DNA from: Artemia franciscana
Taxonomy: Eukaryota > Arthropoda > Branchiopoda > Anostraca > Artemiidae
Assembly (NCBI RefSeq): GCF_032884065.1
Contig: NC_088867.1
Location: 42,029,314 to 42,093,313, forward strand
Length of the DNA stretch: 64,000 nucleotides
Direction: 5' to 3'
Made by a program: the position numbers and the translations under genes
In this document: in pieces, positions 16,156-33,062 of the stretch
How positions within the stretch are numbered: the stretch's first letter is position 1
Layout of the letters: each line of letters starts with the position of its first letter
The notes under the pieces: generated by a model
Seen by the model: only the letters and a program-made list of their open reading frames with translations
What the model was told of the DNA's origin: nothing
Databases searched by the model: none

Positions 16156-16384
16156 TTGATATTTTGAACCTTATGAAATGGCATAGTCTTATGAGAACAG
16201 TACTTTTGTTAACGCAGAAAAAAAGGTCAGTATTTCAGCGCTCTCTTTCCCCTTGGTTTTGATGGGCAGCCGTAGTGATACCTCTCTGCTTCTGGGCACT
16301 TTCATAGAGAATAAATTTAAAGCTACTAGCCGGTCAAGACGTTAATACTTATACCCGGGTCTTACGTACACACCTTTAACGGCA

Positions 16385-17427
16385 TAATAATAATTTATTT
16401 GTGACCCACTTGAAACAGCGGAGAATAAAAACAAACACACAAAAACAAACTTCTGATAACACATTAAGTTACTTTAGAAAACATTTTAGAAGATCATGAA
16501 AAGGGTTAATAGTAAAATATATCGAGTCGGATAGTTTCTGGTGTAGCACTTTAAGTTCATTTAATAAATCTAGAGCCCCGAAATTTGTTACCATATCACT
16601 GTTCTTGTACCAGGGAGGAAGATACAACAAAAACGGAGGAAACGAAAATGACTTGAGAGCCTTTAAATCTTTTCTTTTTAAAACAGGATACAATCCAGAA
16701 AGATATAAAACCGAGTGATCCCAAAAGCAAGAATAAATTTGAGAAAGGGCTTTGTGGTTGTATTTCCCCCTGTTCGCAACAATTTGAGAATAACCCACTG
16801 GAAGTTTACCCTTAGCATCAGACACAATTTTATTACGAAAAGAGACTAAATTGCTAGTAACGGTAATGCCCAACCACCTTAAAGAAGTCACGCACGGAAC
16901 GCTAAATTCAGAACAATTAAGTCTAGAAGATTGGTTAGGAGAAGAACCAAAATGAAGGAATTCACATTTATCAGGGTTAATGGTTAGACCTACATTCGAG
17001 AAAGCAGTAGAGATAGAACGAACAGAAGCCGAAAGCCCAGATTTATTTCTACTAATGAGAAGAATATCGTCTGCATAAGCAAGATATGAGACATTTGAAC
17101 TACCTAAAAGGTAGGTTGTTGGAAGACTATTTAAAATATCAGCAATACAAATTTTGAAAATTGATAGAGATAAAACTCCACCTTGTCTCACACCTTGTCT
17201 TACGGAGATCTTTAACATAGAAGGATCAGAAGGAGAAGATTTAACATGAAGGAAAGAATGACCATACCAAAATTTTAATAAAGAAACAGTAGAAACATTC
17301 TCTCCACATTTAAGCAAAGAAAACAGGGCTTGGGAGTGAACTACAGAGTCAAAAGCCTTAGATAGATCTAAAGAACAAAAAAAAGATCATAACCCTTCCT
17401 GGAAGCATCAGAAAGCAGAGTAGAAAG
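16385..17427 (-). mobile_element. Minus-strand LINE (copy D), 5'-truncated
   Basis: The RT and C-terminal domain on the minus strand end in a 3' region with AATAAAT followed by TTATTATTATG (about 16383-16400), a plausible LINE 3' terminus. The 5' edge at about 17427 abuts an AGT/ACT microsatellite. This is a typical 5'-truncated insertion. Confidence 0.85.
16469..17425 (-). pseudogene. LINE reverse transcriptase, YADD present (copy D)
   Basis: A 282-codon open frame (17317-16469) carries VRQGVRQGGVLSLSIF, then YLAYADDILLISRNKSGLS (catalytic YADD intact) and GLTINPDKCEFLHFG, followed by the RT thumb (SLRWLGITVT). Upstream, in a second frame (to about 17425), is motif A, DLSKAFDSVVHSQALFSLL, separated by one frameshift near 17385. 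Of the RT fragments in the window this is the least decayed. The endonuclease half is missing. Confidence 0.9.
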
Positions 17428-17480
17428 AACTAGTAGTAGTACTATCTACTAGTAGTAGAATTAGTAGTAGTAGATTTTGA
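17428..17480. repeat. AGT/ACT trinucleotide microsatellite
   Basis: ACTAGTAGTAGTACTATCTACTAGTAGTAG-type repeats at the 5' edge of LINE copy D, partly self-complementary. Confidence 0.9.
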
Positions 17481-18643
17481 TTCTTAAAATAACCTACGAG
17501 ACCCGCCAAGTAAGGATTCTAATGAATGTTATGATTAAAGAACCTTAGGGTGTAGGGAGAAACCTTCAGTGCCCATCAAATCATAATTTCATTGTTTGAT
17601 ATGTAATAGTGTTTGGTTTTTACCTAATAGAATTTTTAAAACCCTTAAGGGCCCTCTCTCAAATATTCTCCTATTTCTTCACCACCCAATTTGTTCATGC
17701 TTTACAAGTAGTTCGTGTCAGCAAACAAGGAATTTTTGCCGCCATTTCCTATGGGCAGAGCCGTTAGAGATTCTAGACAAATATTCATTTTCCTAGGAAC
17801 AAAGGCTTGCTGGTAAACATAAGTTGTACCGCTATTTCCAGGAAACAGAAGCGTCAAATGATCCGCTATTATTTTAACAGAAACCAAGTAATTTTCTGTG
17901 TTTTTTTGGGGGGTATAAGAACGAGCACTAGAACGGAGTTCCCATTAGTCTTGCAAAAGATCCAAACAGTGACTAAGATCCTAGCATGGGATTAATTACA
18001 AATTTTTTAACTTTTTTTTACTTTTGTTTGAAAAAGTTTCTTGTTTGAAAAACTACTTCTGAGCTTGACAATTTAAGTTGGAGAGCAGTTTGACGATAGG
18101 TGTATGACAATGATAAAGAAGGGGGAAAGTAAGCAGCTACCCGGAGTATGAGGGCAAAGGGTTGATTTTATAATTTCGAATTTATTCTTTTTTTAGGAAG
18201 TTTGGGTTATTACACTTAAACGGCGTTGTATCAAACTTTTGTAGCTCAAATGCAAAATAAATTGTTTTTATACTATCGCTTATCATAGAGAAAACAAAAA
18301 CACAAGGAAACACTTGGGGTGTATGATATTCGCTAATTCAAATTTTTCAGTTAAATTTCTCTCAGTTTTAGTTTACCCCCACTTTAAGCCCTATTAATGT
18401 TTAAATTCCTCTTAGAGCACAGGGGTTGCGCATCATTTGCCCTCCATAATTTCGTTCCATATCATTACGCCATTTTTTGGACCACGCTAAGGTGGGTGGG
18501 GGACAATGAGGCTATTTCTAATCAATAAGAAGATTTTTAACCATATATGTCCTTTTTTTATAGAAACTAATTCCCATAAATGATCAAGTAAGATGTATAT
18601 TTCGTTTCATGAAAAATTAAAAATTATTTTTTTTTATTTCAGG
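17481..18643. other. AT-rich intergenic sequence with a small internal duplication
   Basis: No gene is supported. Two similar phrases, 'gccgccatttcctatgggcag' and 'accgctatttccaggaaacag' (about 17737 and 17830), look like parts of an old duplicated unit. Confidence 0.35.
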
Positions 18644-18912
18644 TGAACCCCAGCCAGAAAAAACTTCCTTCCCAGAAGAGGGCAAGGATATGAGCAGTCC
18701 CATTACAAAGCGAGAATGTGGACCCATCTGTGCTCCCCATTCAAAGAAATAATGTACCCCCTCATCTCCCAACCCCCTTAGCGAGAATGCCACCCCTTCT
18801 GCCCTCAGCAAGGAAGATAGTAAAGTCACCCGAGCTTTATAACCTGTGTCCCATGGCAGTGAAGTCCCCAAATCTTCTGTACAAGATGACACACATATTG
18901 CCAGCCTTCACG
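18644..18912 (+). other. Possible host exon or exon-like segment (weak)
   Basis: A pyrimidine-rich tract ending TTTTATTTCAG (to about 18643) is a good 3' splice-site look-alike. It is followed by more GC-balanced sequence than its surroundings, and GTACGT at about 18913 could serve as a donor. One frame reads GEPQPEKTSFPEEGKDMSSP and stops after ~36 codons. A second frame, open from about 18675 to 18921, is proline-rich. Since no single frame is open throughout, it could only be a terminal exon, an old exon with a frameshift, or chance. No protein family is recognised. Confidence 0.2.
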
Positions 18913-18921
18913 TACGTGTAA

Positions 18922-20835
18922 ATTCTTTCATAAAGCTTATATAGTGACGCGTTAAAAACTTCCCGTTTTTTCTAGCCCATGTATATTCTTGTTCAAACTA
19001 ACAAAGGTGAAAATAACTAGGATGTAGGGCGTCTTGTTTGTCACCTCTCAGAGGGGCGTTAAGACAATTGGATTAAAAACAATCCAGTCTTTTCAGCCAA
19101 GTAAAGGTTTCCAAGAGCTTTTTGCTATGATTTAACGCTAAAAACTAAATTTTTATGTGAGATAAAATTCTTAGGCTATTAGAATATTGAGGATATCACC
19201 CATCCATAAAAAGTAAATCATTAATTTAGTTCACTATAGAAACCTTTTCAATAGCTATGAGACATCCTTGAATCGCTTTAAATCGCTTTGAGGGGGCTTG
19301 AAGACACCCTCGTTCTAAAGAGAGAAATAGCTAAAAGTTAACTTGGGTTAATAAGAGGGGAAATAACAAGGATTTTCCTGCTTCTAATATTGAAAACATA
19401 ACGTTTCACCTCTAAGAAGAGTGATATGAGGAGTCAATGGTCTTAGATTAATAATATACTCTTTTCACAGCTTAAAATCATAAGTGCTTTAAGGGAGCAA
19501 GAACTTTGATTCTTTTGCCATGCCACCAAAAATGGCGTCCCGGCAGGGAAAAACCAGCTGCTACAGATTTTTGGATAAAGAGATAAACAGACTTTTTTGG
19601 TGAGGAAGGGCCAATGGACACAACCTCTCCCTCTGTATGTGGTTTAAGACTTTTTAGAACACTACATTTCACGAAACGTAAAGGGGCGCACTCTACCCCA
19701 CATTTATGCGCCAATATCTTCTCAATATATCTTTCTCAATATCGTAAATTTTTAACTCATAGTGTGGGGTCTTTGTTCCCGAAGGTTCACTTTGGGGTCA
19801 ATTTAAGGTATACTTTCTGATCACTAAACCAACAGTTGGCTATATGGTTTCAATACACCCAAAGCCTTCTGAAGATCACATTTCCTTCTCAAGAAATTTT
19901 CAGACAAATATCGTATTCTCTTTTCATCCTAATATGAATTCTTCCACAGGATGAAATCAAAAGTGTTTCAGTGAGCTAATAAGCTCTTATTATTTTTTTG
20001 GGTTAACATACCGGTATTACCACCAAAAAAAGAAAGGTATATGGAAATCATATTATCACCACCAGCCTAATATCCTGACCCCAGTGGAAAGACCCCAATG
20101 TAAGACCCCAGTGCAAAATGAACGTAAGGTTGCTTATAGTAAGGGGTGAGCCCAATTAGTATACTTTATTCAAACTTTGATCTAAATTCTGTAGTGAGGT
20201 ATTTTGGCCTCGATGCAGAATTCTTAGAAAATCTGTTAAATTAAGTGTCATCTAGTGAGATGAAGAGGGTACTAGAAGAACAAGTACCTCCTCCTCACAG
20301 TGACAGTGATATGCGGGAACCAGGATAAAGTGGTGCCAATTCACCCCATGTTTTTTCTAATTAGCTGATACCACTTTGCGCAATATTTGTATTTTTAGAT
20401 GTGAGTTCGGATCCAGTAGACATAGAACACTCCTATGTTAGCAAGATTCAGGCACTTCCTTAACAGCGAATTCGGGAGGTGGGGTGGGACAGTGAGAAAG
20501 CATCCATAGTTCAAAAATACATTTTTAATGGAAAGGCGGGCGAAATGTACTCGCATTACCTGCAAACGAAGATGCAAACACTTCACCCAGACTAAATAAT
20601 TTTGAGGGCGTTTTTTTTCGGATTAGGTAGGAAGTATTTATAATAGGGTTGAAAGTCATAATTAAAATGGTAGCGGATAGAAGGTTTTACTTATAGAAAA
20701 ATTAGATGTAAAAGCCTCAAAGTTAAAAAGAAAGAATTTGTTTTAAGAGGTGGGGGGAGAAGGAGGATGTACAATATAATGCAGATTTAGTTGTCAATGT
20801 GTATAATGATTTTGTTTGATATGGGCTTAGAGTAA
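18922..20835. other. AT-rich intergenic sequence
   Basis: No gene is recognised. Around 20060-20120 a short 'gaccccagtg' theme repeats three times. Reading frames on both strands here are short and resemble nothing known. Confidence 0.35.
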
Positions 20836-21312
20836 TTCAAGTATTCAGTTCTCTTCGTAGGACATAAACACGAGAAAAGGGAAAGTAGTAAGCCATTTAT
20901 AGATAATTCGGCAATTAATGAGGGCAAGGAGAGGACAGAGTTTCCTAAAGTAAACCTTAACTGTTTAAAGAGGCAATATTCTGTAATAGTTAATGGAATA
21001 AACATTTTTTTAGAGAGCAATGAGCATTTAAAGATTGAAGTTTCAGTGTTACTTCACGACATGGAATAGGAAGAGGGGGAACTTAAAGGTAAAAAGGGGG
21101 TAATATATTCAGTAAGGGCACCGTCCATTGAATCCGCGCAACAATGGATATGGCTTCATTACGAGCCTGCGAAAGACCCTCATTCAACTGGTAATTTCTT
21201 TTCGATTCTCCACATTAGTTATGTTTTAAATGAAGTTAAAAATCTAAAGAAGGGAGGACCTGCTACTATTGTCCACTGTATCCTTCTAGATTCCAAGCAG
21301 AATTATAGTTAA
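20836..21312 (+). pseudogene. Protein-tyrosine-phosphatase-like fragment
   Basis: A frame of 159 codons has one internal TAG (21067-21069). In its second half it reads SVRAPSIESAQQWIWLHYEP, then STGNFFSILHISYVLNEVK and KKGGPATIVHC. The order of an HY-type block, a long helix and a GP-x-x-VHC block resembles the end of a protein-tyrosine-phosphatase domain before its catalytic HCxxxxxR loop. Here the Cys is followed by ILLDSK, so the phosphate-binding loop is absent and the copy cannot be an active phosphatase. It lies directly upstream of a polymerase B fragment in another frame, and may be cargo of the same element. The family call rests on pattern only. Confidence 0.4.
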
Positions 21313-22083
21313 AACATCACTTGAGGCTCTGTAAGCGTCATGAATATCAGTCTGTTGAGACGGTTTCGGCTGACAATACCATTTTAAGTTTCAAAGAGTT
21401 CCAAAATTCACTCTTGCATTGTGACAAGGTGGAATTAGACATTGACGGTAAACTTGCAAACTTATAAGATCCATCAAAATCGAACCGTGTCAAAGAACAT
21501 GAAGCCATTGCGGTCTCTAATGGGCATGCTCAAAGAGACTCGAGTAATGCAATGCATTCGGTAGAGGTATTTGAGAAATTGGATGAGTCGCAGCCATGGT
21601 TGCACCTATTTAAACAGCATATAAGTCAATTATACGGCTTCTTAACGTGAATTATCCAAGGACCAAGGACTATCCAAGACCAGAGGACGAGTAGGCAATT
21701 AAAAATAAAGATATGTGTCGGGCTTACAAGTTTGTTGAGGGTAGTGGCGTAATGTTGTCCCCAACTATGACCATTTAAGTAATCCAATTTTATTGGGGGA
21801 GTCACTATGGTGGACTGGCTCATAAATCTTGTAATTTAAATATTAGAAATCAATACTTTCAAGCAGTTTATAAGCAAAATTCTAACTATGATTTGAAAAT
21901 CATATTACCCACGTTGGCAAGTTTGTACAAAGGTTAAGTTGTAGATGGCACATAGGTAAATGGGTCTTTTTCATATAACATCACACCCAAATTATCTGGG
22001 AATCTGCTGCTCTTAGAATTCAAAGGGATAAAGGTTGAAAATGGTTATACATACTTGAATAAAATCCGTGTTTTAGATTCCTA
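21312..22083 (+). pseudogene. Polinton/Maverick-like protein-primed DNA polymerase B fragment
   Basis: The first part (frame from 21312) reads HLRLCKRHEYQSVETVSADN and FKEFQNSLLHC, resembling the linker before the exonuclease region in Polinton polymerases. After a decayed stretch, frame 21795-22083 reads HYGGLAHKSCNLNIRNQYF, with an H...G-x-AH-x-x-CNL pattern seen in the zinc-finger-like segment of these proteins. QNSNYDLKII follows, containing the N-x-x-YD of exonuclease motif II, and then YLNKIRVLDS. Stops and frame changes are frequent. The palm and finger domains further downstream were not recognised. The length is far below the roughly thousand-residue family members. Confidence 0.6.
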
Positions 22084-23456
22084 AAACGCGTTTAGATTCC
22101 CCTAAGTCAACGCATTCAAGTACAAAAAAGCTATTATTTTAATAGTTTCCCTCTCCTCAGAACAACAGTTTCCAGATGATGGAATGTACCTTCAAGGCTA
22201 CGTGAAGAAAAATTACAACCCATAGAAGCGTTTTTATGATTCAGTTCACTATCAACAATAGCTCAGTAGTGTGTTTTTCTTATCGTTTTCTAGCGTTTTT
22301 ACAAGTAATATTTTTCACATTTAGGGTTTTTTATATTTTTTAAGCAAAGCGAAATCGTTTTATTTTAAAAAGTGCTTAATATTATACTATTTTTTATTTC
22401 TTACCCTTACCTACCACAGCAGGCAACGCACCTTCCGGCTTCCGTTCTGGCCGTCGCATCCTCCGGGCGATCCGGTTAAGTCCAGCCCTCTGGGTGGGAC
22501 GCATTTCCAAGTGTCCATCTAAATACTGTTTTTTAATGCCCACTGCCCATAAATAAATATAAATATGTAAATATATTCATGTGCCTATTTAAATGTGTTT
22601 TTAGCGCTTTTATTTCTGTTAAATTCAACAGATTGTATTTATTCAATAGATTGAGGGTGTTTGGTTAGCTGTATTTTGACAGCGAGAAGAGTAATATGTA
22701 TTAATTTCAAACTTCATTTAGATCATTTCTTTGCAGAACTTCAATGTCTGGAAAAATAACACTTTTAACAAAAATAATTAAAAATCGTAATAAAATGTTT
22801 TTAGAAAACCCAAACAACATGTATTAGTGCTATATTTTGGGGCAAGAGTCCTATGATAGAATAAAGAGTATTGCATCATACATAAAATTCATATGGGAAC
22901 TTGATGTATTTAATATTATTAAACCATATTTGAGGTTGATTATTGATAATTTAGTCTAAGCCATTGAAGAATGATCTCAGGAGATGTTATAGTCATTCTC
23001 GGTCCGGTCTCACCATGACCAAATTCCTGTAACTGTTGTTCTCCATAATCTCTTTCATCACAGTAAATGCATGATAGAGTAAATGCAGAAAACACTTGCT
23101 TTGAATTGTACTTACTATATCATCTATATATTATCTATCAACCATATATCATCTATATATCATATATCATGTTCAAGATTCAAGTTCTCTTATAAATTTA
23201 AACTAGTATCCCAAATGTATCTCAGTGAACCGAACTTCTTACTCTCGGCATACAATCAAGCTTCGAATAAACCATATGGTTAAATTCTATTGGATCTCAA
23301 TCAAAACATGCCTGAGGATATACGGGTGGTCATGATATTTTTCATAATGATATTACCGTATATCTACACGTAAATAGTAAAAAAGAAAACTAGTTGTCAT
23401 CATCACACTGAAAAACTACATGGAAACAGAAATTTATTTTCCATTCTAAGAAACTG
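22084..23456. other. Intergenic sequence with one GC-rich patch
   Basis: No gene is recognised. A patch at about 22410-22510 (containing GGCCGTCGCATCCTCCGGGC) stands out as GC-rich in AT-rich flanks and is unexplained. TATC/ATATC simple repeats lie at about 23110-23170. Confidence 0.35.
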
Positions 23457-24425
23457 ATTTATAATCAAGGTCTTCATTGATCCTTTTTCCAATCATAGTC
23501 CTCTTGAAGTTCATTATAGTAACAATACACTTGGCATTTTTTTGAAAATCACCAGCAGAAATTTAGTGCTGGTGATACATTTCTGATCAATCGAACAAGT
23601 GTTATTTGCGAAAAGGGGAATCATTTGTGGTCAATTGAACTTTTTAAACTGTCAAGAGTCTTAGACACTAGACCAGTAACGTAATGTCTATATAATAGGA
23701 AAGATGACGAGATTATTGGCAGTTTTTAAGAGTATGAGTTACAAAATTTTAACAACAAAGCAAGGTACCAAATGGAAAAGATATTACAGAGTCGTACTCG
23801 CAATGGTAAGAGACAGTTGCTTACTCATTGGCTAGGATATAACTCTAGTTTTGACTCTTAGACTGACGTTGAAGACGTTCACAATTCCTAATGATTTTTG
23901 TGTGACATTCAAGTCCAATGTCTCTGATTTCCTTTATAATGATTTGAATAAAACAAGTGATTTCTGGAAAGAACTCTGCTCCACCATCGAATTCGAGGGA
24001 AGTTGCTCATTTTGACTGTATTCTTGAAAATGCATATGATATCCTGAGCAAAGATCGTACATATGATACAAAAGTTAGAAAAACGGATTGGAAAGTATAT
24101 GGTGAGGAAGAGGAATGGATATCTTCACTTCATTCTGAAACATACCTGCATCTCACCACAAAAGATAAGTAATGTGGTATGACTAATATGTGTCATGCTA
24201 TCAATGGACAAATCTACTCGTAAAAATGGTGCCTTCACATTCAACTATTCAATGGAACAAAGGAGAATTTGAATTAGATCTCCCATTGAGATTGAAATGA
24301 TTCGTTTCAACGACAACCTGAGATATGTTCTTGGTCTTAAACGGAATCTAATCCAGAGTAAAAGTGCCGAAAGCATAAGTGGGATGGAACGCGTTATTTT
24401 TGTAAACTATCCTATCGGCTTCTCA
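23457..24425 (+). pseudogene. Possible virion-associated protein of the Polinton-like relic (weak)
   Basis: Broken plus-strand frames read FSNHSPLEVHYSNNTLGIFL (about 23481-23540). Just before the R1 insertion they read IEMIRFNDNLRYVLGLKRN (about 24290-24350). A start with short 'SN..' and 'NNT' motifs, and a later '..L.. LRYVLG' motif, resemble an uncharacterised protein commonly found beside the capsid gene in Polintons. Several stops intervene, and the R1 element cuts the sequence at about 24425. The position between the polymerase and capsid fragments is the main support. Confidence 0.3.
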
Positions 24426-26305
24426 TCTGATTAAATGAAAAATACAAGTTTTTCAACTGAAAGTAAAGAGCGACATTAAAACTTAAAACGAACAGAAATT
24501 AATCTGTATTTAAAGGGGATTTTTCCTCCTCAACAACCGAATTTTACGCTAAAGTTTGACTCTTTCTCTCAAATTTACTTTTTAAAACAGTACAAAACTG
24601 TAGCATAAAGAGCAGGGTGCTGAGGAGGGAAAAGCCCCTTTAATATACGGAGTAATTTCTGTTCGTTTTAAGCTTTAATGTCACTCCTTACTTTTAGTTC
24701 AAAAACTTGTTTTTTCTTTTAATTTCTGAATGTTTTTGAATAAATACATTTTTTGATTTTGGCTGTCCCCACATGAGTAATTAAAACAAATTTTAAATGT
24801 TAAATTTTTTGGGATAAATGGCTTTCTCTTAGTTTTGATCGGAAGATTTTCAGAAAAAAGGGGTGGGGGAGGAGGTCTAGTTGCCCTCCAATATTTTGGT
24901 TACTTAAAAAGGCAACTAGAACTTTTGATTTATAAGAACGTTTTTATTTGTAGAAAATATACGTAACTTGCGATTTAACTCAAATGACAAACTTCTGTAT
25001 TTGTATATTTTTATTATGTATATGAGGGGGTTTTCCTCGCTCTTTACACTAAAGCTTAAATTTTGTCCCATTTCTTTAAGAATGACCCCTGAATCACAAA
25101 GCTCATAGAATAAATATTTGAGATTACTAAAAATACTTTGGCGTAAAGAACGAGATGTTTAGGAGGACATGAACCACACATATGAGAAATAATTTCTATT
25201 CGTTTTAAGTTTTAATGCTGCTCCTTACTTTCAGTTGAAAACTTCTCCATATTTATTTTTTAATTGTTTTGTTTTTGTTTTAAATAATTCTGGAATATCC
25301 TGCGCTCCTTTCGTGGAAATTATCTAATCCCATGACAAATCCCCAGCTCTAAATGGGTACCTGGAGAAATCTGGGGAAGATAAACAGGAAGAATGTGCAA
25401 AAGCACAGGATGGCTGGCCCCCAACCTCCCATTGCACTTCCTGGCTGAAGGGCCAAGAAACGGAGATCAGCACCACCGGTAGGGACTGTAAAGTCTAATG
25501 CCGTATCCTTTACCTTTACCTTTTTACCATGACAAATTCCTCCATGGAAAGATCCTCCCACGTAACCCCCTCCACTCAGCCCCCCTCCCAACCAAAGCAA
25601 TCCCCCTGAAAACATCTGCAAACTTCCAAATAACCATTAATATACCTAAGCCCTGGTCAAATTTTGTAACTTGCAGCCCCCCCCCCTTGGACAGTGTGGG
25701 AGTAAGTCGTCCCTAAAGATATTTTTATTAGGTTTTTTGACTATACTGAACAAAATAGCTATCTCAAAATTTTGATCCGTCGACTTTGGAAAAAAATGAG
25801 CTTGGGAGGGGGCCTAGGTGCCCTTCAATTTTTTCGATCAGCTAAAAAGGGCACTAGAAATTTTTATTTCCGTTAGAATGAGCTTTCGCGTGACATTCTA
25901 GCACCACTGGGTCGATAAGATCACCCCTGGTAAAAAAAATAAACAAATAAGCATGCACCCGTGATCGGTCTTCTGGCAAAAATACGAAATTCCGCATTTT
26001 TTGAGATAGGAGCTTGAATGTTCTATATTAGGGTTTTTTGATACGGTGAATGAGATCATGTAATTGTTGTCAAGATTTTTTGATTTTTAGGGGGTGTTTC
26101 CCCCATTTTCCAAAGTAAGGCTAATTTTCTCAGGCTCGTAACATTTGATGGGTAAGACTAAATTTGATTAAATGTATATGTTTAAAATCATCATAAAAAT
26201 CTGACTGCAACCATTAGCATCAAAATTCTGTTTTTTAGAGTTTCGTTTACTTTTGAGCCGGGTCGCTCCTTACTACGGTTCATTACCACGAACTGTCTGA
26301 TAATT
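24425..26305 (+). mobile_element. R1 repeat element, near-complete copy
   Basis: A foldback hairpin (arms about 24445-24555 and 24615-24722; each with CTGAAAGTAA, AAACGAACAGAAATTA and a CTCCTCA block) is followed by the ~1.5-kb R1 body. That body has 'ggcttttctcttagttttgatc'-like, 'aagaatgacccctgaatca' and 'gacattctagca' blocks. It ends in the terminal motif 'gagccgggtcgctccttact' and 'accacgaactgtctgat'. It contains a SINE insertion. It has no coding capacity and interrupts the Polinton-like relic. Confidence 0.8.
25341..25526 (+). mobile_element. SINE-like insertion with 11-bp target duplication
   Basis: A 186-bp stretch within R1 is absent from other R1 copies. It is flanked by CCATGACAAAT on both sides (25330-25340 and 25527-25537). 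It ends in a CCTTTACCTTTACCTTTTTA tail following 'gtctaatgccgtat', typical of a SINE with a short simple-repeat tail. It has no coding potential. The head has no clear tRNA A and B boxes, so it may be 5'-truncated or derived from another RNA. Confidence 0.75.
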
Positions 26306-27084
26306 GTATATTTCTTTAAGCATCTTTTACCGAGGCGTTGAGGGTTGGTCATACCAATGTCCACCTTCTACATTTTATAGAACGAAAATAACTCATGAAT
26401 GCAGTCATCGCTATAATATAAAGCACCTTCATTATACTCCAGTCAACAGCTCTGAGCTCTGATATCTTTTTGGAGCTCTGGTAGTTAAAATTAAGATGCG
26501 AATTGAGTGGTTCTCTAGCAATAACAAAAGATTTAGCTGTGATTGTCTGTCATTTTGACCTGATCAGTGAGATGGCTAATAGAAAAAATACTTTTGTTTG
26601 TCCTCATGTTGATTTCTATGTTGCTTTTACCACGACGATTGCGTCGTGGAATGGACTGTTACAGGGGTTGTTCCTCATTGTCCCGTTACGGTCTCAGCAA
26701 TTTGTTTGCAAAGTTGTTTTGCTTTGTTGCCCTTGCTAAAAAAAATACATTGCACAATTTGCCAAGGATTTGAAGTCCTCTACAAGACACATTTGGGGTT
26801 CTGGTAATGATTTCAAAGAAAGAGTTTCTTAAAATTTCAGGTCCGGCACGTGATCCCTTGGCCAGAGATTAAAATCACGACAATGGGGAAAGGGTTTAAA
26901 AAGGGTGAGAAATATTTCATCTTTCATCAGTCTCAACCCAGGCTAGAAGCGTAAATCGACATTGTTTTAGAAGAAAAAGAAACCAAAAGTAAAAGTCGTT
27001 AGAAAAAAATTGATTTCTTTCCCTGGAATGGAATATTTACCATATACAGGAATATCATCCTCTGGTCTACTAATCTCTAAGTCT
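26306..27084. other. Interval between R1 and capsid fragment
   Basis: No gene is firmly recognised. A segment at about 26890-26950 reads KGFKKGEKYFIFHQSQPRL and may be the decayed upstream part of the capsid region, but this is not supported enough to call. Confidence 0.3.
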
Positions 27085-28008
27085 TCTAAATGCTAAAAAT
27101 GTCGATGAGAGTGTAAAATATGGTAGACACAATTTGCTTAGGCAAGTCATTGTCTACATTAATGGAATGTTGATGAGCACGAGCAAAAATCTTTCAAATT
27201 ATGTAAGTTAAATACGATTCATGTTGATAACTCCTATTTTGTATAAGAAAATTGAGATATTTGGCTATTGGATATGAATACAAAACCAACACTGAAACTA
27301 CCAATATACTTAGATATGCAACAACTAAATATTTACACTAGGTTGGAGAAATAAATCATAAGACATTTAATATACCTCAACGGATGCCTCCCAATGTTAA
27401 GATTGATATAAAGCTAAAACTTGTTCCGTCCAATCTTATTTTGCGAAAATTACTTGACATTGCACCTCATGTAACAGTATATCTCACCTCGGCGATACTT
27501 CGTGTTCGAAAGCAACCGGTTATGAGTTCCGTTGCCTTGGCAATTGAGAAATTAAGAGCTAGTGAAAATAATATCAAACTGCTCGTTCTGCACAGAATCG
27601 TGAATCAACGACATGTTTCTACAGGTACATGTACCTAAACCGATTCGTCACTAATCACTTGATAAATCCCATCAAATATTTCTTTGGCTTTCGCATAAAG
27701 TTCTAGGGCCGTTGGATCATGGACAAACTCTCAACATAAAATTTTAATATTTGGACTTTTACCTCTTATATGTAAAGTAAATGGAATTCCATTCTACAAT
27801 TTATCCTTTGATGAATCCTTCAGGATCCTATACGAATGACAATACAATCTCTAGATCGATATTCACAATTTGCAAAAACTATAGCATCATTGTATTGGAT
27901 TTGTCCGTTACTCAAGATATGACTATGTTCCGAACGGGTAGAATACGTTTAGAGTCCACATTTTTCGAACCATTAGAGGAGAGTATAGAATTAATCTCAC
28001 TAAATTAA
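27085..28008 (+). pseudogene. Polinton/Maverick-like major capsid protein remnant
   Basis: Three plus-strand segments in different frames line up in the order expected for the double-jelly-roll capsid protein of Polintons. Segment 1 is YGRHNLLRQVIVYINGMLMS (about 27116-27180), a conserved N-terminal strand pattern. Segment 2 is RMPPNVKIDIKLKLVPSNL, then VTVYLTSAILRVRKQPVMSS (27384-27638), like the middle strand-plus-'LRV.K' motif. Segment 3 is LDLSVTQDMTMFRTGRIRLE then FFEPLEESIELI (27781-28008), like the C-terminal motif. The three-way agreement is the best evidence for the element class. At least two frameshifts separate the segments, so no functional protein is made. Confidence 0.65.
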
Positions 28009-28095
28009 TTTGAAACTATTGGGGAATTACCCCTGATGGCAGTGTTCTAGTGAACTTGCCACCATGAACACAAATCAAATATCAACGTAATCAAT

Positions 28096-28572
28096 TTGGA
28101 TTCTTACATGTCCAAATGCAAGTCCTATTCTATACCCTCGGATTTCCTTGAGTATGTTGAAAATGTTAAGAATATTCTTATCATTGTTAACAGTAGTCCA
28201 TCAGTTTTAAAGACGGAGCACTCGCTACGCATCTTTCAAATAGAAAGAATATTGAATTTCTTGATCCTCTTAGCCTACCATATGCATTCAAAATGCCTCA
28301 CATTAAAAGCTTTCTTGAGCAAAGCAGAAAATCTATTATTAAAAATCAGAAATGATTAAAAGATTTTACAACTAAAAGCTATGGTTTTCATGGAATATTA
28401 TTTGTTATCTTTCGATGTCAGTGTATAATTACAGTGAATTTCATAGCATTAATGGTGACAATCATCGATTGAACGATTTTCTAGTTGAAAACATTCTTTC
28501 CTACCTGTATAATATAAATTTCAATGCCCTAAGAGTTGAATGTTTTGAAAATATTTATGAATTTGTTTATTA
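28096..28572 (+). pseudogene. Unassigned coding-like remnants downstream of the capsid fragment
   Basis: An 87-codon frame (28096-28359) reading MDSYMSKCKSYSIPSDFLEY is followed by a second short frame (about 28427-28572) with NYSEFHSINGDNHRLNDFLV. The second frame ends at TAA, with AATAAA right after it. Neither matches a family I recognise. Their orientation, the spacing after the capsid fragment and the closing polyadenylation-like signal suggest the 3' end of a plus-strand unit of the same element. Confidence 0.3.
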
Positions 28573-28607
28573 ATAAAAAAAAATGTATGTTCACAACACT
28601 ATGTTTT

Positions 28608-29330
28608 TTAGATTTCTTCTTCCACGTATAGGTAGCCATCGTAAATGATAAGCAACGGCAGCCCGTTAGGATTCAACTTGTATTCATCTTGGCATGCAAA
28701 ATCAGGGTCACATTTTCTACAATACAAGTTAACTTAATTTTTATTGTTTCTTTTCGTAATATCAATAATACTATTCTGATTCATATTATAAAATTCAGAT
28801 CTTTCAATTTGCTTATTTGAAGCAATGTTACATACGAAATCCTCATATGAGGGATCACTCTCTGTAACAACCAAATAAAAATCAGTAAGCTTATAATATA
28901 CTAATATAGTTAACATTTTCAAAGTAATGCCGTAAAAACCAGACTCTCTTGTTATTTCAGCAATTGAAGGGTAGACCAGGTTCTTCCTCCCAAAACAATT
29001 TAAAACAACGACGATAAAAATGTCTTAAAACAAACAGAAATCAAATTTAAGTTTTTTTACAATCATAAACTGGTAAGTATGGTCCTTTGCATCATTTTGA
29101 TCGTAGTGACAATTAGAATATATTAAACCTCTAATGTGGGAATCACAAACATCTTCAAGACAGAAATTAAAGTCTTTATGTTGATCTGCATATCCTCTAT
29201 GCAATTTACATGAATTCCACAATCTACATTTTTCATTATAGTCATTAATAATTATACAATTCTCACAGGATAACCAGCTTATCAACGTATACAAACATCT
29301 TCAATATTCACTTTCTCATTGCTCAAAGAA
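28608..29330 (-). pseudogene. Possible caspase-like remnant following the CARD
   Basis: Minus-strand frames below the CARD read CIIINDYNEKC, then KLHRGYADQHKDFNFCLEDV (29294-29025) and KLKFDFCLF. This gives a first-strand plus R-G-x-x-D-x-x-x-F pattern, as at the start of a caspase p20 domain. Further on, KLTDFYLVVTESDPSYEDF (28922-28734) resembles the start of the small subunit. I cannot find the catalytic SHG or QACxG motifs, and frames shift between segments. It is therefore either a decayed caspase, an inactive caspase-like decoy, or a misreading. The last frame, ending YLYVEEEI (stop at 28608), may belong to it. Confidence 0.35.
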
Positions 29331-29448
29331 ATTGTCTCGCGATCAGTCAAATGAATGTCTTCTAGGAGGAGGAGTAATCGAGTGACGTCAAAAAACTTAT
29401 TTAGACATGAATATCGACTCATTTGTTGTTGCCTTGCGGAATAGCCGT

Positions 29449-29691
29449 CTAGGTAGTGGCTAAAAGCATAATCACAGTATCATTTTGTTTTGTTTCAATT
29501 AATATTTCAATAAATTGAGCGAATGTATCTAGGCCACAACGTAAATGTTTCACACAATAGTCCAAAGATGGAGACTCACTTCTCATTTTATCATCAAGCA
29601 TTCTTTGAGAAAATATTTCGTCATCTAAAATCAAGCGTTTCTACAAAGTTACTAGATTCTGTATGATTTTTTGGTCCTCATATCCACTCAT
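29449..29691 (-). pseudogene. CARD-like domain, one premature stop
   Basis: An ATG at 29691-29689 opens MSGYEDQKIIQNLVTL. One in-frame TAG (29643-29641) is followed in the same frame by KRLILDDEIFSQRMLDDKMR, then LDYCVKHLRCGLDTFAQFIE and ILIETKQNDTVIMLLA, stopping at 29449. The spacing of hydrophobic helices and the late 'L..L...G..F..F...L..T.Q......L' pattern fit a caspase-recruitment domain of ~80 residues. CARDs mediate homotypic contacts in apoptosis and immune signalling. It is convergent with the plus-strand capsid-side remnants and sits at the edge of the Polinton-like relic. A death-fold other than CARD is possible. Confidence 0.5.
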
Positions 29692-29869
29692 TTTTAATTC
29701 TGACGCTCTCACTCCGATTATAGACTAATAGGGATTCTTTCTTTCTTTGATACTGAAGCAAATCTAGTAAGTCACGCACGGTTACGTCACCCTCACCTGT
29801 TAATATTGAACCATGATCAATTTGTTACAACCAGGGCTTCTAAGATTGACTAGCGGATTCTAACAAACC

Positions 29870-30115
29870 CTATTACGTAAGACCCAAATTTTTTACGTAA
29901 AAACCAAGGAAATCCTGATTTTGTGAGACCCTGAAGGTTTTTCCCTACAGCCTTGAGTTTTTTAATCGTAACATCCATAGAAATCCTGATTTTGCGAGGT
30001 CTCGTTGTTTTTTGAAGAATCAGAGAAAACAATGACGTGACAATCTCGGAAATGCTGATTTAGCGTGGACCCTGAAGGTTATTCTAAGAATCAAAGAAAA
30101 ATACTGGGTAACAGC
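29870..30115. repeat. Degenerate ~75-bp tandem repeat (three units)
   Basis: Each unit has 'cgtaa/cgtga' then 'gaaatcctgatttt' (or 'gaaatgctgattta'), then 'gcgag/gtgaga/gcgtgga' and 'ccctgaaggtt' or a variant. Starts are near 29893, 29967 and 30034. Confidence 0.7.
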
Positions 30116-33062
30116 CAAACCCTACTACATAGCAAACAGAATAAACATTTCCTATTACGTAAGGGACACCTGCATCTCTTAGAAAACATTCTCTATTACG
30201 TAGGTGTATATACCGTTACAGGTACGTGCATAAGTCCAAAGTTTGCATAATAGCGTCTTGAGGGACTAGTAGCTTCAGATTTACCCTTATGGGAGTCCCT
30301 GGAAGCATAGAGGCATCACTGAAACAAAAAGCATTGAGACAGAAAAAATTGAAAAGTACTGAAAAAAAGGTTGCAAAGTGAAGTAAAAGAATATAAAAAT
30401 GAAAAAAGTAAAGTAATTACAAAAATTGCACAAAATCACAATGCTAATTGTGAAAATAGGATGAAAACTCTCAGAGTTCAGCTTTATTTTGGAATGCTCC
30501 AAAATGTTAAACAGATATCTTAGAGTAATATTGATATTTTTAAGTTCGGTCTTCTACCACCGACATCAATCAAACAAATCTATATCTTATCGTTACTAAG
30601 AAAGGCTATAAGTGTTGTTTTCTTTCTTTTTCTCATACACTATTTTTTTCTTTTCTCATATATCCTAACAAGTTTCGATATTTAGCTTCAAACTCGAGAA
30701 ATTTACATATTTGGAATTAACGTAAGAAGCGGATTCTTTGATGTAATTCTATGAAAAGTTAACTTCTTATACCTCTCCTATTGATAAGGGTTGTTCTTTA
30801 CTAGCCATTTGCTACCGTGAACAATTTGACTCTTTTTTTAATTACAACCAAATTATATGGAAGATATGTTAATCTATTCACAAATTAGAACTTATATTGC
30901 TGTTTAATTGCCTTTTCAAAAATCCTACAGATTTTCTTATCCCAATAGCTTTCGATGAGTATATTGGAAATTGGCGATTATTGTATTTAGAGTAACTCTA
31001 ATTTTTCTTATCCTATTAGTTTTCGAACACTATAATGGTAATTGGCGATCTTTGTATTTAAAGTAACTACAATTCTTTTAAGCCACTACAACAGTTCATT
31101 TTCATGACGTGCATGAGCATTGTGATCAAAAATCAATTTTCGAAAGTTGCTTTCTATTGAAAAGGGACGCTCTTAGCAGCTTGTTGCGTACAGTTTCTTT
31201 GCGTTACAGCTTTTGAATTAACTGTTTGATCTAGGTCTCTCTTAAATTTGACAAAGGAACTGTATTCCCAAAAGTTTTCTTATTCCTTAACCCCTGTTTT
31301 TTGAAATATAAGTCTAATATTCGTTAAAAATGTTTTGATCATCTCTGAAAAAGTACACCCCTCGGGCAATTTCAGTGAGAGAGTAAAATTTCAGAAAGAA
31401 TTTTTGGAGAGAGAAATGTAAAATATAGGAGATAAATTTATTAAATCAAAAGTTAATTTCGGAAAAAAAACAGAAACTATGGATTTAAATATTATAAAAT
31501 TTGGAGTTTTGTAGGTTGACTTTTAAGGCGTTAGGTAAATATTTTTTTCCAAAAATAAATCATCATTTTTATACAGATGAAGCGAAAATTCTTCTCTTCT
31601 TTTCAATCCTCTGTAAAAGAATACTTTTTAGCTGTTACGCCTATAACTGCGACTGATTTATCACCCTCAAGATTCAGATTCCATTTAGCATTTTATTTTT
31701 ATGTCATGAAAAAGATCAAATTTGTCACCTCTTTCCCTATTATTTACTCCTTTCTTCTGCTTGAAGTCTGTGGGAAAAAATAATTAATTACACTCCTTAG
31801 AATGGGAGGCGCCAAGCTATTTTTCAAAAGTTACTCTTTCGGAAAACAAATTTGCTCACGAAGTATGTCATTGACAGATGCATACCTTTAATGAATAAAA
31901 TATAGAATTGAAACTTTTGCATAATTATCCTTGAACTTACGGATCATATGTGCCTTTTTTAACCTCCACAAAACTACTTGTGTACCGTACAGGTGTGAGT
32001 TTGACAGCATCGCAATTGAAACGGTTAAATTATTGCTTTAAACTTTGAGAAGAGGGTGAAAATGGAAAAAAGTTAAATTTTTAATAGTAAATATAAAAAT
32101 TCGTAAATGAAACTCAAAATGACTTAATCTGGATAGTATAGGACGAGGGCTTTCTTCTAAATTCAGAAGCTGTAAGTGAAACTTTTAGGAATGGATGAAC
32201 TGTCCGAATGGGCACTGGAGGATATGCAACTAATAAAAATGCACTATTTGCATACTACTATTACTAAAACTAAGGGTGTTAATATGGAACTTTCCAAGAC
32301 TATTTGGAAGGTCTTGGGGTAAATCCAAATACTATGTGCAGGCAGGTTGTCAAAAAAGTGTATCAGTAATATCTCAGAAACAGATTAAAGCATTAAGATG
32401 AAACTATCCGGACACGAAGAGGAATTGTTGAGCTAGACCATCAATGTACAAAGTGAATATTAGTACTGCTACTGCTGCTATTAATACTACTGTAGTGCAG
32501 TGCTGCAGTGCGGTGCTGCAGTGCTCCAAGGCACGGACTTTTTTGAACTCGGAGTTATTGTTATACTAGATTATCAAAACTTTCAAAAACAGATCTGACC
32601 CAGATATAAAGGTGCAAGAATGTGTTTTTAAATTCCTATATCCAATACTTTCCTGTGAGTGGGGTTAGAAAGGCTTCATGACAATATTTTCTAACTATGA
32701 ACAAAATTTGAATCTGGCTTAAAAACCAGTGACGGTCCTAAAAACTGCTTTTAGTTCAACAGACTGAAGTCAAATTTCATTTATTAATTTTTTCAATGAT
32801 TAATCAGAAAGATACAGTTGTAATTATTACATCTTTAAAGATTTGGCAGAGCAACATTGAAAATGTCTTTCTGAGCCATGATATCTATAGTTGGCCCACT
32901 CTCAGTTATTTTATTGGCCAAAACAACAAATTTCCAAGTTATCAAAAAGGATTGCATTTATTTAAGTTTCCAGCAAGCTTGGAACTTTTAGAGAATGATG
33001 GGATGGGATCATTTCAGCTGATAAACTAAAATTTTCAAATGTAACGAGGACTGATTATTATG
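30116..33062. other. AT-rich intergenic sequence with small repeats
   Basis: No gene is recognised. A ~72-bp tandem duplication lies at about 30930-31075 (shared 'tttcttatcc', 'ttttcga', 'attggcgat', 'tttgtattta'). A CTG/CAG-like imperfect microsatellite with 'gcagtgctgcagtgc' lies at about 32460-32530. A 68-codon frame at 31577 follows a weak acceptor-like site but resembles nothing known. Confidence 0.4.

Follow-up and report, generated by a model that had tools for sequence, protein, structure and literature searches.

The window analysed here, a 64,000-nucleotide stretch of the Artemia franciscana genome (contig NC_088867.1, positions 42,029,314 to 42,093,313), carries on its plus strand the decayed core genes of a Polinton/Maverick element and, close to the right end of this element, a minus-strand gene whose product contains a CARD-like domain (Table 1). 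Taking the reading of this additional gene into account, we consider it probable that positions 16,274 to 30,320 represent a single ancient, inactive Polinton/Maverick copy of about 14,000 bases. An old element of this type carrying an apoptosis- or immune-signalling-like gene had been proposed in a first-pass annotation of the sequence, and terminal repeats, collinear gene remnants and a fixed gene slot now bear this out.

Single pieces of the window, searched alone against Pfam and the PDB, gave no significant match. Such searches are uninformative because the copy in the window is too decayed; the element was proven through relatives, i.e. other places in the same genome (1.27 Gb, 6,468 contigs). 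DNA_pol_B_2 was matched 44 times in this genome. Around six of the best matches, 13 segments of 10 kb each were retrieved, and their 153 open reading frames (ORFs) of at least 90 amino acids (aa) were compared by tblastn to the window from 18 to 32 kb. The ORFs of the relatives matched the window in one collinear plus-strand series consisting of PolB, ATPase, integrase, minor-capsid-like, PW-like, capsid and protease genes. At E<=1e-3, 40 of the 54 matches on 16-31 kb were located on the plus strand at Polinton genes, the remaining ones being antisense to the capsid gene (5), within inserted repeats (8) or at 17.1 kb (1), and a reversed-sequence control produced none. The same gene order, which the first-pass annotation had suggested looking for, is thus present at six places. 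It is complete for one of them (C991, the full series except the exonuclease region) and partial for five, with six genes each in C583 and C8, both without a minor-capsid match, three in C6, three in C3 and two in C14 at this threshold.

The identity of the core genes follows from the same relatives. ORFs from C991 matched DNA_pol_B_2 (E 7.9e-23), Pox_A32 (1.4e-6), rve (3.7e-10) and Chromo (8.2e-6), which by homology assigns the corresponding window pieces to a family B DNA polymerase, a packaging ATPase and a retroviral-type integrase. The 1,024-aa frame of L004 that best matches the N-terminal PolB piece also contains the DNA_pol_B_2 match of this locus. The capsid, minor-capsid, PW and protease ORFs of C991 had no Pfam match above the cut-off, and their names rest on gene order. 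Homology within the family and position of the capsid gene fit a double-jelly-roll major capsid protein; a capsid profile found no relevant match in Pfam or the PDB, and the AlphaFold2 model of a capsid piece (pLDDT 33) was unusable. The protease gene fits by position, and ORFs of relatives matching this region reach 184 aa and display a His-Asp-Cys pattern, recognised by eye, which may be that of an adenovirus-type cysteine protease; a protease profile retrieved no protease from the PDB. Polymerase-B-like and capsid-like remnants were accordingly confirmed where they had first been noticed, through collinear ORFs of relatives; the suggested profile check succeeded for the relatives (DNA_pol_B_2, rve, Pox_A32) and failed for the isolated window pieces and for the capsid. 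Scans of IMG/VR with the capsid and the CARD-like domain confirmed no relatives, and a scan of a phage collection gave a chance match only (E 8). A PolB N-terminal match at G000:C7:22623051-22623221 lies inside a reported 1,750-aa open frame, indicating that better-kept copies of this gene exist.

Imperfect terminal inverted repeats (TIRs), each split into an outer and an inner part, bound the element. Both of its ends start with AGTGAT, giving TIRs with AGT ends as in Polintons, and the best score of the repeat pair was 96 bits compared to at most 51.8 bits in 60 control stretches. The related copy L053 reads AGTAGT at its end, with the second AGT aligning to the end of the window element. 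The limits of 20,836 and 29,691 assigned in the first pass were consequently too narrow, while its view that the element was later broken by an insertion, ascribed there to a putative R1 element, is supported in that other elements did interrupt it: an ORF encoding a reverse transcriptase, situated outside those limits, splits the left TIR, and a copy of a repeat family interrupts the interior. The ATPase match begins 0.9 kb after the start of the match to the PolB exonuclease region, and searches of the window copy did not recover the polymerase part at the C-terminal end of PolB; we therefore regard this copy as dead.

The CARD-like gene is enclosed by the TIRs and points from the right end into the interior of the element, on the strand opposite to the core genes. 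Its association with the element was assessed genome-wide using the scored matches of four window pieces: 150 of 996 candidates for the CARD piece (29452-29640), 151 of 1,449 for the C-terminal piece (28737-29024), 150 of 1,239 for one capsid piece, each including the window, and 150 of 576 for the PolB N-terminal frame (21070-21309), itself included. Pairs were counted among 150 listed places per piece, window included and one of the 151 C-terminal matches being absent from the list, and compared to random sets without small contigs. Capsid and C-terminal pieces formed 17 pairs within 10 kb, all 17 in opposite orientation and downstream, with a spacing of 1.07-1.88 kb in 15 cases (random mean 0.41, maximum 3). 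Capsid and CARD pieces likewise formed 17 pairs, 16 of them opposite and downstream (random mean 0.37, maximum 4), and CARD and C-terminal pieces 21 pairs within 3 kb, all on the same strand and in downstream order (random mean 0.11, maximum 2). Within 20 kb, PolB-N was paired with the CARD piece 14 times, 13 of these convergently (random mean 0.73, maximum 4), and with the C-terminal piece 11 times, 10 of these convergently (random mean 0.65). Furthermore, two of the 44 DNA_pol_B_2 matches had a CARD copy in convergent orientation no more than 20 kb away. Among the 19 fetched CARD loci other than the window itself, 14 had the protease gene convergent on the 3' side of the CARD-like gene, although three of the loci (L048, L049 and L056) look like one copy. 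The CARD-like gene is therefore a standing gene of this family in a fixed slot and not a one-off capture by the window copy.

Inspection by eye of individual copies revealed a helical domain, followed by a Cys/His-rich stretch and a C-terminal part that contains another pair of cysteines. A profile built from 22 natural pieces of the helical domain matched seven PDB chains, all of them caspase chains aligned over their CARD, with a best E of 0.012; five bear the name caspase-9 or procaspase 9. An 18-piece profile returned eight matches, the same seven caspase chains and an unrelated one. One of the 22 pieces, L024, matched Pfam CARD (PF00619) at E 0.014 over 67 residues, below the cut-off; the alignment covered most of the model, and L024 matched no other family. 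The product thus likely comprises a CARD-like death-fold domain and a Cys/His-rich, probably zinc-binding region. Since the curated cut-off was not reached, we refer to the domain as CARD-like rather than as a member of the CARD family, and its identity as a CARD is putative, drawn from matches below curated cut-offs. The frame at the far edge that had been called CARD-like in the first pass is hence a genuine element gene in many relatives, while a caspase assignment did not hold. Two candidate readings were discarded: a B-box in the Cys/His region, a pattern recognised by eye, gained no support from searches, and for a caspase no Peptidase_C14 match was obtained with Pfam in the window pieces or the copies scanned.

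Table 1. Features of the Polinton/Maverick element and its insertions (positions in the window).
Feature	Position	Strand	Evidence and remarks
Left TIR, outer part	16274-16386	+	Starts AGTGAT; 73% to reverse complement of 30320-30209
Reverse-transcriptase ORF of an inserted retroelement, not Polinton	16469-17386	-	Pfam RVT_1, E 1.9e-24; between halves of left TIR
Left TIR, inner part	17478-17644	+	75% to reverse complement of 30022-29855
Left internal region upstream of PolB, common to other copies	19609-20802	+	blastn to loci with PolB-N matches
PolB ORF, N-terminal part, including frame 21070-21309	20803-21521	+	tblastn, best E 7e-16 to 1,024-aa L004 frame
PolB exonuclease-region fragment	21797-21925	+	Weak; seven loci, expected order, E 0.001-0.023; up to 0.048 in the ORF comparison
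Packaging ATPase remnant	22675-23301	+	E 6e-20 to 3e-29 to ORFs of relatives, one matching Pox_A32 (E 1.4e-6)
Integrase C-terminal remnant	23559-23885	+	E 1.6e-12 to 1.3e-15 to ORFs of three relatives, one matching rve (3.7e-10) and Chromo (8.2e-6)
Minor-capsid-like ORF remnant, named by position	23896-24003	+	Weak, E 3e-3 and 2.7e-4; relative without Pfam match above cut-off
Inserted repeat-family copy interrupting the Polinton	24417-25343		Aligns over long stretches (about 74-79%) with other parts of the window and with L027, L030, L034, L039
PW-like small ORF remnant, named by position	26569-26937	+	Five places, E 1.3e-6 (best) to 0.036 (weakest)
Major-capsid ORF remnant, three pieces	27128-28029	+	Best E 1e-31 to ORFs of relatives; capsid identity by position
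Putative adenovirus-type cysteine protease remnant, named by its position and a His-Asp-Cys pattern	28043-28567	+	E 2e-5 at best, mostly around 1e-3 to 5e-4
CARD-like gene, C-terminal part, two pieces	28611-29024	-	Piece 28737-29024 matched genome-wide; kept in fetched copies
CARD-like gene, Cys/His-rich part	29028-29300	-	Kept in fetched copies; pooled dN/dS 0.37
CARD-like helical domain, two pieces with one in-frame stop between	29452-29724	-	Genome matches of 29452-29640; caspase CARD top profile matches, E 0.012
Right TIR, inner part	29855-30022	-	Pairs with left inner part
Right TIR, outer part	30209-30320	-	Pairs with left outer part; homology with copy L053 also starts here

Copies of the CARD-like gene vary in structure. 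L053:965-1719 and L054:1501-2076 contain two tandem CARD-like domains upstream of the Cys/His region. In L050, L057 and L058, the distance from the right-end sequence to the CARD domain is longer by approximately 0.25-0.33 kb; this extra segment is missing from the window copy (29728-29742) and, in L050, has an open frame on the CARD strand. In L011, L022 and L024, the PolB N-terminus is located about 1 kb from the CARD-like gene, and these loci look like internally deleted derivatives. Near the end of a related element, the frame at L035:9321-9512 resembles a host membrane-transporter exon. Separately, L064 (G000:C51:74900-75500) matched Pfam CARD at E 0.008 in an apparent host exon that by eye is unlike the Polinton domain, and neighbouring Peptidase_C14 matches cluster at G000:C793, C5186, C6:36.07 Mb and C4902.

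To evaluate past selection on the CARD-like gene, pairwise dN/dS was pooled over related, decaying copies, the pairs of which are not independent, a weakness of this estimate; values of 0.53 for the CARD-like domain (21 copies), 0.37 for the Cys/His region (17) and 0.46 for the C-terminal part (14) were obtained, compared to 0.57 (9 copies) and 0.46 (15 copies) for two protease pieces. The value for the CARD-like domain is biased, as most loci were picked by CARD similarity, the other two parts being mostly flanks. L049, L056 and L059, which are duplicates or neighbours, were excluded from the sets, and decay after insertion pulls dN/dS towards 1. These data suggest that the CARD-like gene was likely under selection while the family was active.

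Several observations weigh against the reading of these features as one Polinton with a CARD-like gene. At the level of the element, inspection by eye of the flanks of this old copy revealed no 6-bp target-site duplication, and the TIR pair was not found in two other elements, C1 and C12, within the flanks compared; in C1, the left flank is similar to the right ends of other copies. PolB-N and capsid matches formed only five pairs among the 150 places, all on the same strand and downstream (random mean 0.82, maximum 4). Moreover, the elements fetched at the six places gave no CARD match at E<=1e-3, and the CARD-like gene therefore looks lineage-specific. At the level of the domain, no piece reached the curated PF00619 cut-off (best 15.8 versus 23.9 bits), 21 of the 22 pieces lacked a Pfam CARD match, and one piece matched the unrelated family RAD24_helical at E 0.0049, better than the CARD score of any piece. 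Searched alone against the PDB, L024 retrieved caspase-9 at an unconvincing E of 0.9 among unrelated matches, and L050 retrieved no caspase and nothing convincing. AlphaFold2 produced an all-helical but weak model of the domain (pLDDT 60), with which Foldseek found no match, and searches with the Cys/His region identified no convincing relative.

The strongest competing explanation accepts the Polinton as real and assumes that its extra gene encodes a Polinton-specific helical and zinc-binding protein, e.g. with a structural or regulatory role, which resembles a CARD by chance. Scores below the cut-off, the weak fold model without a match in the fold library and an unrelated helical family outscoring CARD for one piece are in line with this, and the RAD24_helical match led us to give it slightly more weight. 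Two results speak against a chance resemblance: caspase chains aligned over their CARD make up all seven PDB matches of the profile, and L024 matches Pfam CARD alone, with most of the model covered. We regard this explanation as unlikely.

Three other explanations are far less probable. The presence in the genome of two other CARD matches and 70 Peptidase_C14 matches would allow the minus-strand frame to be a decayed host caspase or CARD gene lying beside the Polinton by chance, but the CARD copies keep a constant order and orientation relative to the Polinton capsid, none of the 70 Peptidase_C14 matches comes closer than 20 kb to any of the 150 listed CARD copies, and the TIRs enclose the gene, which makes a host origin of this kind very improbable. 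That the pieces are several unrelated elements stacked by chance is hardly credible either: other repeats are abundant (24417-25343) and a reverse transcriptase is present, yet order and strand are those of relatives at six places, and TIRs enclose the whole. Finally, the first-pass annotation had placed a phosphatase-like fragment upstream of the polymerase and proposed that the element had captured a phosphatase. This resemblance was seen by eye only, whereas frame 21070-21309 aligns by tblastn within the PolB ORFs of relatives and three of the 44 DNA_pol_B_2 matches sit 1.5-1.9 kb behind a PolB-N match on the same strand. Pfam and PDB searches of the window pieces detected no tyrosine phosphatase PTP domain or other phosphatase match, and the phosphatase reading was rejected in favour of N-terminal PolB, leaving capture of a phosphatase extremely doubtful.

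Returning to a Polinton with a CARD-like gene, a possible role can be outlined. Many relatives keep the extra opposite-strand gene in the same slot near the right end. Its product, in which a CARD-like death-fold domain likely precedes a Cys/His-rich and probably zinc-binding region, may have acted as a virus-encoded CARD decoy or adaptor. Such a decoy would have bound a host CARD protein, either of the apoptosome or an innate-immune adaptor, and could thereby have damped host-cell death or signalling during replication of the element. By analogy with the ranavirus vCARD, interference of the product with host CARD signalling is conceivable. The broadest form of this proposal, in which a whole family of animal Polintons gained a CARD fused to a zinc-binding region, possibly similar to a ubiquitin ligase, and retained it under selection as a viral decoy for the apoptosome or CARD immune adaptors, is advanced only tentatively and is rather less probable than its opposite. 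Whether animal Polintons are transposons or infectious viruses is debated, as outlined in PMC8097293. A conserved gene in a fixed slot, apparently built to meddle with host cell-death signalling, would favour a virus-like life and would provide a host target; if the decoy is real, it would be evidence of a viral way of life in which Polintons had to cope with the death of host cells.

Accessory genes in Polintons are already on record (PMC8097293). A CARD-like accessory gene in a Polinton/Maverick was not found in the open-access literature searched, mostly by title or term, which does not prove its absence from print; a term search of PMC4028283 and PMC11071308 returned no passage on apoptosis or CARD. 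Vertebrate Mavericks, as described in PMC8097293, share with the element reported here PolB, ATPase and integrase genes and the minor capsid, PW, capsid and protease genes named here by position, in the same order from integrase to protease. They also share inverted repeats of a few hundred bases with AGT ends, given there as (AGT)2, and accessory genes in the flanks of most elements. As a difference, the core genes of the Artemia element are all on one strand, an arrangement reported in the same source for Xenopus tropicalis, whose elements have no accessory regions, and the accessory gene is CARD-like. Among proteins, the CARD of caspase-9 (PDB 9s6e and others) is the best profile match of the helical domain, but at an E of only 0.012, and searches revealed no catalytic domain of a caspase alongside the CARD-like gene. 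Giant Burro retroelements are comparable as mobile elements with apoptosis-related domains (BIR, BCL2-like), and differ in being LTR retroelements with other domains, as described in PMC6431247. The closest functional parallel is the ranavirus vCARD, likewise a CARD-bearing gene of a DNA virus, though of a different virus group and likened here by description; according to the review PMC4974522, frog cells showed more apoptosis when this gene was removed. If the proposed function is correct, the CARD-like and zinc-binding decoy would be the Polinton counterpart of this viral gene.

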